DNA of 26,450 nt from a virus, in the IMG/VR virus record IMGVR_UViG_3300032268_000793, positions 1 to 26,450 of that record. One strand, 5' to 3'. Shown here piece by piece: positions 7,967-16,235 of this stretch. A program made the position numbers and the translations under genes. Each line of letters opens with the position of its first letter. Position 1 is the stretch's first letter. The notes beneath the pieces were generated by a model, which made no database searches, was not told the DNA's origin, and saw nothing but the letters and a program-made list of their open reading frames with translations.

Positions 7967-8679
7967 TAGGCTCCTTTCAGGATGTATTCATTCACGCTCT
8001 GACACTGCCATAGCTTGCCGGGAACAACTTCCGAGACGGTGAAGGATGTGGTCTGCGAGACTGCCGAGAATGTGTTGAACACCGCAATTGCGTCACCTGT
8101 GGGAATGGTGCCGCTTGGTTCGCCTGCGTCGTCAACCATTCCGCTGAATGTCATTTGCCGGATGCCCGAACTGCCCATGTTCAGCACGGGGATATTGCGC
8201 ACCGCTGAATAAGTCGGCGTCGCACCGGGGTTGGCACCGGCTCCCCATTTGTAAGTCGTCCGCGAGCCAATGTAGGTGACTGAGCAGGTGATTGTTTTCT
8301 GGTAGTTCACCGAAGTTGCATCGGTGATTGCCTTGGTCGTCTGCGCGGTTTGCAGTGAAACGTCGTCCTCGGCCAGCACGCCACGCCCGGCTCCGCCGCG
8401 CATCCCCATGTATGTCAGCGTGACGGTGGGCAGCACCGGGTTATCATCGCTTGTCCAGCCTGTGAGGAACATGGATGCGTCGCTCAGGTTAGCGCCCGCC
8501 TCGTCTGTGCAGACGAGGTAGCCATAGCCGGAAATCGTATTAAGGAAAGCCGCCATGCGATACTGCGCGCCCTGATAGGTGACGGCGCATGTGTCAAACT
8601 CGCCGGTAAAGTTGCGGCTCCACTGCGCCGGCTTGACTTGGATGAAGGTCGAATCTTCGATGTAATGGAGTGCGCTCAT
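7966..8679 (-). CDS. Putative minor tail/distal tail protein (237 aa), unrecognised
   Basis: Directly follows the tape measure gene, with which it overlaps by ATGA (8676-8679). That is the usual place of the distal tail or minor tail proteins (lambda M/L, Dit). The sequence is beta-rich and soluble (FTGEFDTCAVTYQGAQYRMAAFLNTISGYGYLVCTDEAG, YIGSRTTYKWGAGANPG, SFTVSEVVPGKLWQCQSVNEYILKGA). No motif allows a specific family. The call rests on order, length and composition. Confidence 0.6.
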   Translation of the reverse strand: MSALHYIEDSTFIQVKPAQWSRNFTGEFDTCAVTYQGAQYRMAAFLNTISGYGYLVCTDEAGANLSDASMFLTGWTSDDNPVLPTVTLTYMGMRGGAGRGVLAEDDVSLQTAQTTKAITDATSVNYQKTITCSVTYIGSRTTYKWGAGANPGATPTYSAVRNIPVLNMGSSGIRQMTFSGMVDDAGEPSGTIPTGDAIAVFNTFSAVSQTTSFTVSEVVPGKLWQCQSVNEYILKGA

Positions 8680-10592
8680 TCTGATAAAACCTTTGCCATT
8701 TTCTTTGTCGAGGCGGCGGTTTCCTGCGCGGCTTTCATCACCTCGCTGAGTGTTTCAGCTTCGGTCAAATTGCCCATGCGCTTCCGCTCTTGGTCTTGAA
8801 GGAATGCCTTGCGACGCGCTGCGTCTCCACGGCGAACCTCGCCCGGCCTGCGCGTCGGTATCCCGTCAACATGCGTGATGCCGCGCGCAGCCGCCATGCT
8901 GCGGATGCTCTCTAGCTCGCGGTGTTTTAGCAGTCCAGTTGTCGGCACCGCATTGGGGTTCATCCCGCCCGGCAACGCCATTCCGCCGCGCTGAAATTCC
9001 GTCATGCCCTGCATACGTTTCAAAGCCTCAACTCCGCCGCCCGCTGTGGCGCGATCCTTTGCCATCTTAAGCGGTGCGCTTCCGGCGATGTCGAATCCTT
9101 TGAACCGCCATGAGTTGAACTGCTTTTGCAGCGCGTCATTGTTGGCCTTCGCGAATCCGGTTTGCGCCATGTGAGTTCCGGCCATACCCATCTCCATTGC
9201 TCCAAAGCCGGGGTTTGCGAATCCCATTCCCATGTTCGCGCGCATGTTGCGAACATCGGTTGCCGACTGCGGGCGGGACGCTTTGTCCGTGACTTCGGTG
9301 CCCTTGAATGATGCACCTATCCATTGGCCCTTCGGCATACTAAATCGCGACGCGCGCTCAATCGCGTCCTCCGCCGCCGCGTCTGCCGGGTTGAGGGCTT
9401 TGCGGGCCTTCGCTGCTTTTGCCTCCAAGCCAGCTTTGCCGAAAAGGTCAAACGTGTGATTCGCCTCCATCTTCGGCATGTCCTCGGGCTTCACCTTTGG
9501 AATCATGCCAGCCAACGGCCCTGCCATTCCGATGATTTTGTTAATCATTCCGGCGAGACCGGGTGCCATCGCGTTCCATACCTTGCCGATTCCGTTAGCC
9601 AAAGCCTCGGCGAACCAATCCACGAAATTCGCCGCGCCGAGCTTCATCGTTTCCCAGATCAAGGTGATTGTTTTCATCGGCTCCTTGATTGCGATGATGA
9701 TCCATTTCGCGGCATCCTTTAGCTTGTCGGCCAGCGCGCCACCTAATCCAGCAAGGTCGATCTTGTCCATGACGGCTGTTAGTCCGTCCATTATTGGAGC
9801 AAGTCGAGCGGCAACGCCCACGAAAAAACCGCGCAGCTTAATGCCCACACGTCCGAGCCGGTCACTGATTCGGTCAAACTGTTCCGCGTTGTCTCCAAGT
9901 ATTTTCGCCTGCTCGCCGATGCTATCACGCGCGGTCTGCATCGCGGCTCCGTCCGCAAAAAAGGAAAGCATGTTCATGCCGGATTTGCCGAACAGTTCAA
10001 CCGCCGCCGTCGCACGCGCAGCCGGATTTTCCATCTTGGAAATTGCCGCGCCGATACGCTCGAACTGTTCGCCGGGGTCGAGGTCGAGAAGGTCGCTGAC
10101 GTGTAGGCCGATTTGCTCGAATGCCTTTGCGCTTCCGCCTTTCGCAACGCTAACAATCGCAACCTGCATTTTCTTGATGGCTGGAACTAGCGCGCCAAAC
10201 TCGACGCCGCTGTCCTTGAGCGCCTGCGTGAGCACGACGAGTTTCTCCACCGCGATGCCGGTGCGGTCTTGCATGTCCTGCAATTCGCTGCCAAATGCGT
10301 AGGCTCCCTCTATCCCTTTTGCAAAGCCTGCCACGCCAGCAACGGCTGCGATCTTCGCATACAATCCAGTCATGGCCCGGCCAGCTCTTCCCGCCATATT
10401 TCCGAATGCCGAGCCCATCCCGCGCACGGCTTTCTCCGCGCCGAGAAATGCGCCCGTCGCGATCATCTTGACGGGGTTGCGCGCGAACTGCGCGGCGAGG
10501 GCTTTGCCGGTCGCAAGCGCCTTGGCAGCGCCGCGCGCAAATGGACTCATGTCCATTGACAATACTGCCTTCAACTCTGCTTTTTTTGCCAT
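8676..10592 (-). CDS. Tape measure protein (638 aa)
   Basis: A long Ala/Gly/Lys-rich helical protein with an N-terminal basic helix (MAKKAELKAVLSMDMSPFARG), hydrophobic Gly-rich segments around residues 50-100 (AVAGVAGFAKGIEGAYAFGSELQDMQDRTGI), and a TMP-type block (FERIGAAISKMENPAARATAAVELFGKSGMNMLSFFADG). A hydrophobic middle around 300-365 (IIIAIKEPMKTITLIWETMKLGAANFVDWF and following) may enter the host membrane. It sets tail length and is packed inside the tail tube. By the lambda ratio of residues to length, 638 residues would give a tail near 100 nm, a rough inference. The start is one base after the preceding stop. Confidence 0.88.
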   Translation of the reverse strand: MAKKAELKAVLSMDMSPFARGAAKALATGKALAAQFARNPVKMIATGAFLGAEKAVRGMGSAFGNMAGRAGRAMTGLYAKIAAVAGVAGFAKGIEGAYAFGSELQDMQDRTGIAVEKLVVLTQALKDSGVEFGALVPAIKKMQVAIVSVAKGGSAKAFEQIGLHVSDLLDLDPGEQFERIGAAISKMENPAARATAAVELFGKSGMNMLSFFADGAAMQTARDSIGEQAKILGDNAEQFDRISDRLGRVGIKLRGFFVGVAARLAPIMDGLTAVMDKIDLAGLGGALADKLKDAAKWIIIAIKEPMKTITLIWETMKLGAANFVDWFAEALANGIGKVWNAMAPGLAGMINKIIGMAGPLAGMIPKVKPEDMPKMEANHTFDLFGKAGLEAKAAKARKALNPADAAAEDAIERASRFSMPKGQWIGASFKGTEVTDKASRPQSATDVRNMRANMGMGFANPGFGAMEMGMAGTHMAQTGFAKANNDALQKQFNSWRFKGFDIAGSAPLKMAKDRATAGGGVEALKRMQGMTEFQRGGMALPGGMNPNAVPTTGLLKHRELESIRSMAAARGITHVDGIPTRRPGEVRRGDAARRKAFLQDQERKRMGNLTEAETLSEVMKAAQETAASTKKMAKVLSE

Positions 10593-10593
10593 A

Positions 10594-11283
10594 TCAGAAG
10601 CCCGCCTTCCTCGCTTGCTCCATCAGCTTTTTTTGCGCGTAGTTAAGAAGATCCTGCGCTGCGTTTTCCACCGCTTGCTGCAACGCTTCGCTGCCGATTT
10701 CCTCAGCTTGCGGCGCTGTGTTAATGATCGTAGCGACTAAATCATTCGGCGTCGCCTTGCTCGCGCTTCCGTGTCGAGCCTCGGATTGACCGAATCGCTT
10801 CGAATCTACTCCGCGAACGCCCCTGCCACCTAGCGCGGTCGCGGCCTTGTGCCACCCGGCGAAAGCGGTGTAGCCAGTCGCGGCCAAACGACTGGCTAAG
10901 ATTTTGTTCATCAACGTCTGAATTTGTTCGCTCGTCGGCCTTGCGATGCCGCGCTTTTTCAGTCGTGAAAGAGCGATGTATTTCAAAAGCGAATCACCTG
11001 CCGCCCCTTTGCTGCGTGAACTGCGGCGGCTGAATGTGCCATATTGGTTGCGGTAGATTTTCACGCCCTCAGATGCTTTCTTCCCACCCATGCTTCGCGC
11101 TAGGTCTGTTTTGATTTTCTCCTTTTTCGCGACTGGCGTAAGCTTCATCGCTCCCGGCCCCGCTCCGCTGCCAATGATTACGTGCAGCGCGGCTCGGTTG
11201 AGCGAATCTGCAAGTGGTCGTTTTGTCGCTGACTGCACTGCCGCCAGTGCTTTTTCCAAGCTGGATGTGTCGAGCGTGATCAT
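10594..11283 (-). CDS. Tail module protein between chaperone and tape measure (229 aa), unrecognised
   Basis: ATG 11283 (MITLDTSSLEKALAAVQSATKRPLADSLNRAALHVI...) is chosen. The frame stays open to 11589, but that part is a shadow of the chaperone frames and is low-complexity Arg-rich. The protein is basic, with many Lys/Arg/Ser patches (SRRSSRSKGAAGD, KKRGIARPTSEQ) and a helical acidic C-terminus (APQAEEIGSEALQQAVENAAQDLLNYAQKKLMEQARKAGF). Lambda has no gene at this point, as T is followed by H. The context suggests a tail assembly or minor tail role; no homologue is recognised. It starts five bases after the stop of the frameshift product. Confidence 0.6.
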   Translation of the reverse strand: MITLDTSSLEKALAAVQSATKRPLADSLNRAALHVIIGSGAGPGAMKLTPVAKKEKIKTDLARSMGGKKASEGVKIYRNQYGTFSRRSSRSKGAAGDSLLKYIALSRLKKRGIARPTSEQIQTLMNKILASRLAATGYTAFAGWHKAATALGGRGVRGVDSKRFGQSEARHGSASKATPNDLVATIINTAPQAEEIGSEALQQAVENAAQDLLNYAQKKLMEQARKAGF

Positions 11284-11288
11284 GGCGG

Positions 11289-11998
11289 CTAGACTAGCAC
11301 GTCCACGCCGTCCTTGGCAAACACGGAAAGCACGTAAATTCGCGCCACCTTGTCGAAGGCGTGCATTTGGCGTTGCCGGTCGAAGTCCTGCCACCATATT
11401 GCATCGTATTGAAGCGCCTCCGCCAGCGGCATCCGGTGCCAGATTTCTTCGGGAGACGCGCCGCAAACCGCATGGACGTGAGCGATGAGGTGCGCCCATT
11501 GCGATTGAGCGGCGCTTACACGTTTCCCGGCTCGTCCCCTGATTCGCCGCCGCCCGTTTTCTCCACCTCGATGCGGAACTGCGCGGCATCCACGCCAGTC
11601 ACGATGCCAAAGAACACTTGGAACGCCTCGCCAAACTTCGGCCCGCTCGAATCGGTGATGCCGCATTTGTCTGCCCATTCCAGCGCGGCGTCGCGCGCCT
11701 CGTCCGGTTTGGACAGTGCCCGCGAAGGCGTCCACACGCCCCGCGCGAGCGCCGTGCTTGCGTCGGGCAGCGTGCATAGCCAAAGCAGGATTGCGGTGTC
11801 ACGGATCGCGCCGGGATACATGTTGGTTGCCTGCAACTGCGCAAGCGCGGCCTCGCCGATGAACGGCCATTGCATCCCCATCGTCTGCGCTGCCACCTTG
11901 CGGCTGGCGCTGTATGGCTCGAGCGGGGTGCCGAATAGCTCGAAGCCTCGCTTGGCGTTGATGAAGGATGATTCTTCGGGTGTGATTTCGTTGCTCAT
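11289..11998 (-). CDS. Tail assembly chaperone, -1 frameshift fusion product (gpGT-like, 236 aa)
   Basis: Translation begins at ATG 11998. At the heptamer G GGA AAC (11528-11522) it can slip back one base, continuing as RVSAAQSQWAHLIAHVHAV...SPEEIWHRMPLAEALQYDAIWWQDFDRQRQMHAFDKVARIYVLSVFAKDGVDVLV to TAG at 11289. This gives 159 residues of the short form plus 77 new residues. The extension has no start codon of its own near the junction, is plainly protein-like, and has the PLAEALQY..IWW pattern seen in tail chaperone extensions. In lambda the GT product holds the tape measure and recruits tail tube protein; the same role is expected here. Confidence 0.82.
11492..11528 (-). other. Programmed -1 ribosomal frameshift signal
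   Basis: The zero-frame codons end CCG GGA AAC GTG TAA, giving the canonical X XXY YYZ heptamer G GGA AAC at 11528-11522. After a 6-nt spacer that contains the stop codon, GCGCC (11515-11511) can pair with GGCGC (11496-11492) around a 14-nt loop. This is the usual arrangement of slippery site, short spacer and stimulatory stem. It differs by a single base from the lambda G-T heptamer GGGAAAG. The -1 frame is open from the slip site to 11289. Confidence 0.85.
11516..11998 (-). CDS. Tail assembly chaperone, short form (gpG-like, 160 aa)
   Basis: ATG 11998 (MSNEITPEESSFINAKRGFELFG...) overlaps the upstream stop as ATGA (11995-11998), so the in-frame extension to 12055 is rejected. The protein is helical and ends in an acidic, Gly-rich linker (EVEKTGGGESGDEPGNV), as expected where a chaperone is joined to its frameshift extension. 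It should act in tail assembly on the tape measure and would be absent from mature particles. It lies downstream of the putative tube protein and upstream of the tape measure, the conserved position in long-tailed phages. Confidence 0.82.
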   Translation of the reverse strand: MSNEITPEESSFINAKRGFELFGTPLEPYSASRKVAAQTMGMQWPFIGEAALAQLQATNMYPGAIRDTAILLWLCTLPDASTALARGVWTPSRALSKPDEARDAALEWADKCGITDSSGPKFGEAFQVFFGIVTGVDAAQFRIEVEKTGGGESGDEPGNV

Positions 11999-14658: not shown

Positions 14659-15636
14659 TCAAGACAACGCGTCGAGCACGGTGCGGGCGGCGGCTTCCCA
14701 CGTCCAGACCGGAGCGGGATTCATTTGCGGATACATCATTGCGCCGTTCATCGCGTCGGCGATTTCCTGCACCGATTGAACCGCCCAATGGTTCTCATCC
14801 TTGGTCGCGTAGATGCGGTGAGTGATGGCCCCGCGCACGTCCGCATGGCCGGTCATTGCGTTCGCTACGATGCGCCGCCCGCACGATGCGTATTCTTGCA
14901 ACACAAGGTTGTTGCCGCCCTCGCACCGATTCGGGAAAAGCCCGAAGTCGGTGTGCGCCATTTCGCGCGCGAGGTCGGTGTGGCTGAGTTGCGGAAGGAT
15001 GGTGAACTGCGAATCGGCGAGGCCGTTGTTGCGCATCAGGCTGCGGAAAAACTCCGGCTGAGTTGCGCCGTGCGCAAGCGGGCTGATTACCTTCGTGTGC
15101 GCCATCGTCTTGAAAAGCGCGGGCCAAGGGTTGAACCACGCGCAGACAAGGTGCGCTTCGGGATGCACCTTGGCGAACTCGCGGAAGGCTGCGATCACAA
15201 GGTCTTGCCCTTTGCGATACTCGAACTTGCCACCGCTGAAAATGCGGATGGTGCCGTCCGGTTCGCGCGGCGGCTGCGGTTTGAAGATGTCGCCGTCAAC
15301 TCCTTGGATGAGCACGCGCGTATTTAGGATGCCCGCCTCGATGCATCGCTGCTGGCACCATGTAGAGCCGACGAAACACACGTCGAATTGCGCGGCGTTC
15401 TCTCGCGCGTCCGGTTCAAGCGGCGACTCGAAAAAGTTCATGCACACGTTTACCTTCCCGCGCGCTGGCGTGAGCGGGCGGAATGCGCCGTCAACAGGCA
15501 TGAAGCACGCGTCAACCGGGTCGTGGTTTGATGTCACCATCACGAAGTGCTTGTCGAGTTCGCGATACATGTTGGCGTTAAACACGCCCCATCCGTAGCC
15601 GGTGCCGGGAGTGCCTGCGAAATGCATGGTTTTCAT
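14659..15636 (-). CDS. GT4-like (GT-B fold) glycosyltransferase (325 aa)
   Basis: Residues about 130-165 give the family's central strand-helix (IRIFSGGKFEYRKGQDLVIAAFREFAKVHPEAHLV), where RKGQD is the phosphate-binding loop typical of GT4 enzymes. Residues 231-258 (FGLFPNRCEGGNNLVLQEYASCGRRIVA) are the donor-binding site with Glu239 and Glu248, one residue wider than the usual EX7E. The N-terminal half is shorter than in cellular GT4 enzymes. It should transfer a sugar from a nucleotide-activated donor, to an acceptor not known. It ends the ATGA-coupled accessory cassette (overlap 15633-15636). The run of Trp near the C-terminus (PVWTWEAAARTVLDAL) fits the closing helix. Confidence 0.8.
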   Translation of the reverse strand: MKTMHFAGTPGTGYGWGVFNANMYRELDKHFVMVTSNHDPVDACFMPVDGAFRPLTPARGKVNVCMNFFESPLEPDARENAAQFDVCFVGSTWCQQRCIEAGILNTRVLIQGVDGDIFKPQPPREPDGTIRIFSGGKFEYRKGQDLVIAAFREFAKVHPEAHLVCAWFNPWPALFKTMAHTKVISPLAHGATQPEFFRSLMRNNGLADSQFTILPQLSHTDLAREMAHTDFGLFPNRCEGGNNLVLQEYASCGRRIVANAMTGHADVRGAITHRIYATKDENHWAVQSVQEIADAMNGAMMYPQMNPAPVWTWEAAARTVLDALS

Positions 15637-16235
15637 AGCTTGCGAGCAATCACGCTCAGATATTTGTCCGGCCCTGCCATAGTTTGCAGGCCAATCTCGC
15701 GGACTTCGTGAAGCTCAAAGCCTGAGCGGGCGATAAGACATAGCCATGCGTCCTTACCGAGAACGCTGTAATGGTTCAGATTTGCGACATGGTTGCATGG
15801 CGTGTCAGGCATTGGCACCTCCACGTATAGGATGCCGCCCGGTTTCAGCACGCGCGCAAATTCGTGCAGCACAAAAAAGGGAATCACGGAATGCTCCAGG
15901 ACGTGCCGCGCCCAGATGCAGTCGAACGGATACCGCTCGAACGAATCCGGCAGCTTGTGCATGTCCACCGGGTGAACTTCGTGGCCGTTTGCCTCGCACG
16001 CGCGAAGGTCTGCCGTGTTGGTGGTGATTCCGATTGGGTAGTGCCCGTGCTGCTGGAACCAATCCAGCGCCGGGCCTTGCCCGCATCCAACGTCAAGCAC
16101 GCTCGCGCCCACTGGCAGCATCGCAGCGACAAGCGGTGCCATCTGCGCTGTTAGGCCGTCGTGTCCGGTTGTGCGCGGCTCGGGATAAGTCTCAGCGGCG
16201 CGGGCCGCGATGAAGTCAGAAAGTCGTGAGGTCAT
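15633..16235 (-). CDS. Class I SAM-dependent methyltransferase (200 aa)
   Basis: Motif I VLDVGCGQG (46-54) binds S-adenosylmethionine; ARHVLEHS (109-116) is the post-motif II pattern of Methyltransf_11-type enzymes; ARVLKPGGILYVEVPMPD is motif III. No DNA-methylase catalytic motif (DPPY or PC) is present, so a small molecule, sugar or protein target is more likely than DNA. Coupled by ATGA overlaps to the Rossmann-like gene upstream and the glycosyltransferase downstream. This suggests that it modifies a glycan or a sugar put on by its neighbours, which is inference. Confidence 0.85.
   Translation of the reverse strand: MTSRLSDFIAARAAETYPEPRTTGHDGLTAQMAPLVAAMLPVGASVLDVGCGQGPALDWFQQHGHYPIGITTNTADLRACEANGHEVHPVDMHKLPDSFERYPFDCIWARHVLEHSVIPFFVLHEFARVLKPGGILYVEVPMPDTPCNHVANLNHYSVLGKDAWLCLIARSGFELHEVREIGLQTMAGPDKYLSVIARKL

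Follow-up and report, generated by a model that had tools for sequence, protein, structure and literature searches.

A probable programmed -1 ribosomal frameshift at the putative tail assembly chaperone locus of an uncultivated phage

Ribosomal frameshifting in the tail assembly chaperone gene is well known in long-tailed phages. The closest described system is the G/GT pair of phage lambda: A short G protein and a GT protein extended by a -1 shift, with an X_XXY_YYZ heptamer close to the 3' end of G. The tape measure gene lies downstream; its protein is bound by both gpG and gpGT, and the tail tube protein by the T part (PMC5009743). The lambda slip site is GGGAAAG. In the chaperone genes of phage Colossus (PMC3556154) and of HCTV-1 (PMC5009743), GGGAAAC has been reported as the slip site, and PMC4626039, after Xu et al. 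2004, gives GGGAAAA for TM4.

We have analyzed the virus record IMGVR_UViG_3300032268_000793, which comes from a metagenome. The window referred to here is the whole record, 26,450 bases long. Its minus strand carries the structural genes: terminase, portal, major head protein and a tail module. One glycosyltransferase-like gene and one methyltransferase-like gene are found between the head and tail genes (14659-16235, minus strand). All genes of the frameshift locus are also on the minus strand, a point which was absent from the first-pass annotation. The features of the locus are listed below in the direction of transcription.

11516..11998, minus strand: G-like ORF, the short form, 160 aa (ATG at 11998, TAA at 11518-11516), with 11 relatives at 88-98% identity
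11535..11540, minus strand: possible Shine-Dalgarno-like stimulator AGGGGA, 6 nt 5' of the heptamer, purine-rich in all relatives
11522..11528, minus strand: slippery heptamer G_GGA_AAC, in frame and separated from the TAA by one codon; replaced by G_GGA_AAA in 11/11 relatives
11516..11521, minus strand: 6-nt spacer GTGTAA, which contains the zero-frame stop; 5 nt in relatives
11458..11515, minus strand: candidate stimulatory hairpin of about 20 bp, from its fold energy and a basal helix paired in 12/12 sequences
11289..11522, minus strand: T-like -1 frame extension, 77 aa plus stop codon, with a third-position bias of variable sites
10594..11283, minus strand: gene for a 229-aa protein between the extension and the tape measure gene, without notable Pfam or PHROG match
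8676..10592, minus strand: tape measure protein gene (PHROG 9483, tail length tape measure protein, E 1.4e-18)

The 160-aa ORF ends with CCG GGA AAC GTG TAA, and the heptamer (11528-11522) is in the X_XXY_YYZ register. The first-pass annotation had proposed a zero-frame heptamer near the stop of the short form, a 77-residue extension in the -1 frame ending five bases short of the next gene, and products of 160 and 236 residues. The recomputed coordinates and lengths agree with all of this: The -1 frame runs for 77 residues at 11522-11292, its stop codon is TAG at 11291-11289, five bases separate it from the ATG of the next gene at 11283, and the predicted long product has 159 + 77 = 236 aa. 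The locus has the architecture of lambda G/GT. There are also differences: The last base of the heptamer (Z) is G in lambda, C in the window and A in the relatives, the window has a long hairpin, and an extra gene, coding for 229 aa, precedes the tape measure gene. No sequence similarity can be detected between the proteins of lambda and those of the window. The heptamers of Colossus and HCTV-1, found in the same kind of gene, are identical to that of the window, and the one given for TM4 is identical to that of the relatives; the comparison with these three papers covered the heptamers, and protein similarity, sought in the phage collection, gave no match.

G_GGA_AAC is the sole in-frame heptamer of this type within the 160-aa ORF. 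A scan of 24 genes has detected nine in-frame X_XXY_YYZ heptamers, two of them less than 45 nt from the 3' end of their gene; of these two, only G_GGA_AAC opens a long -1 frame. When the codons of the ORF are shuffled, only 0.8% of the shuffles have any such heptamer among the 15 codons at the 3' end. The open -1 frame of 77 codons is by itself weak evidence, since open frames of this kind are not rare at 59% GC: The weight is carried by conservation in the relatives. We have also found an in-frame AAAAAAG at 10633 (minus strand), 40 nt from the 3' end of the 229-aa gene at 10594-11283. As a slip site it would open a -1 frame of only 18 codons, and several relatives do not have the heptamer; we have taken it as incidental.

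The relatives are 11 viral contigs from separate metagenomes, whose identity to the window is 88-98% for G and 76-97% for the extension, a closeness which limits the depth of the conservation test. A search of homologues for the heptamer had been suggested as a check: All 11 relatives have GGGAAAA instead of GGGAAAC, as G_GGA_AAA in the same arrangement, with the first six bases invariant and a different Z base. The heptamer is followed by GTC TAG in the relatives, with the TAG one codon on, and by GTG TAA in the window. The relatives are three bases shorter just 3' of the slip site, and their extension has 76 residues. Variable sites in the extension fall mostly at the third position of the -1 codon, 31 of 42 overall (p = 9.6e-8 against one third) and 14 of 17 in the first 30 codons (p = 4.7e-5); these counts omit L008, whose C-terminal part is divergent, and the p-values are indicative only, as sites are shared by descent and there are few haplotypes. 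Judging from this pattern, the -1 frame is under selection at the protein level from the junction onward.

Could the extension be a separate protein, translated from its own start by internal initiation upstream or by re-initiation after the TAA, with the heptamer being incidental? We give this very little probability. The -1 frame upstream of the slip site is closed at 39-66 nt in 10 of the 11 relatives, with no start codon in between, and within the extension the earliest ATG comes after 87-90 nt. Independent initiation is therefore unlikely. Given that selection on the protein begins at the junction, much the simplest way to make the extension is a frameshift. It is true that this late ATG is present in all sequences, and that the open -1 frame of the window and of L010 reaches 276 and 489 nt back from the slip site and contains ATG codons, but coding selection is already apparent in the approximately 29 codons which precede the first ATG of the extension, and conservation would not be expected of an incidental heptamer. 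The first-pass annotation had named homologues having the extension as a separate gene, with its own start and no slippery site, as evidence against its reading; the slippery site is present in all 11 relatives. A single ORF split by a sequencing or assembly error, or by gene decay, has a practically negligible probability. In its favor, the window is only one viral record, derived from a metagenome, and in more distant phages this position is occupied by an uninterrupted ORF of about 200 aa. Against it, the same two frames are present in 11 contigs from different metagenomes, which differ from the window in their stop codon and by 3 nt in length, and coding selection acts on both frames.

We consider it highly probable that a programmed -1 ribosomal frameshift at this locus yields the two predicted proteins, G-like with 160 aa and GT-like with 236 aa. 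This reading, already proposed from the window alone, is strengthened by the slip site in 11/11 relatives, by coding selection from the junction and by the lack of a usable start for the extension in 10/11 relatives. The spacing of the hairpin, the tape measure gene downstream and the occurrence of GGGAAAC or GGGAAAA at reported frameshifts of phage tail genes also speak for it, as do the GGGAAAC or A-rich heptamers which end the ORF in the G position at distant loci with related tape measure genes. Most ribosomes would reach the TAA of the ORF at 11998-11516 and release the short protein. A minority of them, we infer, would be held back on G_GGA_AAC by the downstream hairpin; the tRNAs for Gly (GGA) and Asn (AAC, or Lys AAA in the relatives) would then move back by one base to pair with GGG and AAA, and translation would go on in the -1 frame to give the long protein. 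If the proteins work as in lambda, the tape measure protein would be bound by the G part, and the tail tube protein recruited by the T part.

The 80 nt located 3' of the heptamer have a fold energy of -32.5 kcal/mol (z = -2.87 against dinucleotide shuffles) and form a hairpin of about 20 bp, whose base is a GC helix of 7 bp (11515-11509 with 11464-11458). The spacer of 6 nt proposed in the first-pass annotation is correct, and lies within the 5-9 nt usual for such structures, while its stem of 5 bp falls short of the full structure: What the relatives preserve is the larger hairpin rather than the small local stem. Their folds are about as stable as that of the window, with the matching helix starting 5 nt after the heptamer. 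When the basal helix is counted from the base of the stem, a register chosen by hand, 7/7 pairs are formed in all 12 sequences. At one position of the helix the window has G-C where the relatives have C-G, a compensatory double change which counts as one event, and at another the pairs are C-G and U-G; combining the arm of the window with that of the relatives breaks a pair. RNAalifold, applied to a MAFFT alignment which places the 3-nt indel in the 5' arm, gives a covariation score of about zero and reports broken pairs. The large hairpin is likely to be the stimulator of the frameshift.

A second candidate is the purine-rich AGGGGA found upstream of the heptamer, which could act as a Shine-Dalgarno-like stimulator. 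The relatives have AGGGGA, AGGAGA or AGAGGA at this position, and stimulators of this type have been reported for dnaX and many IS elements (PMC5009743). It is also conceivable, although we find it rather unlikely, that the window and its relatives present two versions of a cassette, one with GGGAAAC, a 6-nt spacer and one stem, the other with GGGAAAA, a 5-nt spacer and a compensated stem, in which the coupled differences would adjust the ratio of short to long protein or keep it constant. If true, the pair would be a natural experiment on the joint change of slip codon, spacer and stem.

The identity of the proteins must be approached by position, because neither G nor T has a family match. 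There is no match for either protein in Pfam, PHROG or PDB, nor by tblastn against 50,697 phage records, and no relative of G is found among the genome contigs. The AlphaFold model of T (pLDDT 62) has no structural match, and that of G (pLDDT 43) is too poor for a structure search. Tail assembly chaperones are often too divergent for a match in sequence or fold. Chaperones of the G/GT type are encoded between the tail tube and tape measure genes. In the window, a single gene separates the G-like ORF from the tape measure gene downstream; a tail tube gene has been searched for and not identified. From this position and from the architecture of the locus, we infer that the G/GT pair is very probably a tail assembly chaperone. 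There is little probability, although somewhat more than for a separately initiated extension, that the frameshift is real and the pair is something else. The failure to match any known chaperone in sequence or structure and the gene which separates the pair from the tape measure gene would agree with this, but the G/GT organization, the size, the position of the slip site and the tail-module context all fit the known case.

Around this locus, the tape measure protein (8676-10592) is 46% identical over the alignment to those of L041, L042 and L044, while G and T are near-identical in the same contigs. Such a low identity beside the conserved pair suggests module exchange next to the chaperone.

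More distant loci have been collected through distant tape measure homologues, with the addition of L099, the one weak match of the tape measure alignment against genome contigs. Several arrangements are found. The ORF in the G position ends with GGGAAAC in L077-L079 and L099, and with an A-rich heptamer in others, such as L080, L084-L086 and L088. In other loci, one uninterrupted ORF of about 200 aa directly precedes the tape measure gene. An example is Verrucomicrobia phage P8625, whose gp18 (L035:4208-4828) has counterparts in L060, L065-L069, L071, L072, L075, L076, L082 and L083: All of them carry a C-terminal motif like that of T and lack a slip site close to the end. The ORF of P8625 gp18, L065-L069 and others resembles the window in having about the size of G plus T and adjoining a homologous tape measure gene, and differs in that it is read in a single frame. 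Comparing profiles of GT and of gp18 and its kin gives no significant result, and a test with a T-only profile gives p of about 0.02; homology of these single-frame proteins to the GT of the window is only suggestive. They are possibly a chaperone which needs no frameshift.

The Synechococcus phages S-LBS1 and S-CBS1, which have a related major head protein, also show an in-frame slip site ending the ORF in the G position. From there the -1 frame adds 114 or 110 aa and runs to the tape measure gene. Unlike the window, their heptamer is AAAAAAC, the stop comes directly after it (L100:8324-9045 for S-LBS1, L101:6664-7316 for S-CBS1) and the proteins are different. In both records no frameshift is annotated, and the end of the extension is called a separate gene.

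In summary, the mechanism is already known: This locus adds to a long-known kind of frameshift, and the known picture of tail assembly is unchanged. What it adds is the difference in the Z base between the window and its relatives, a hairpin larger than first described and a family of proteins to which no database entry corresponds. The two versions of the cassette would provide a small comparative case for frameshift tuning. A well-supported frameshift annotation also becomes available for a family which neither Pfam nor PHROGs recognize, so both the short and the long product may be annotated in these uncultivated phages.
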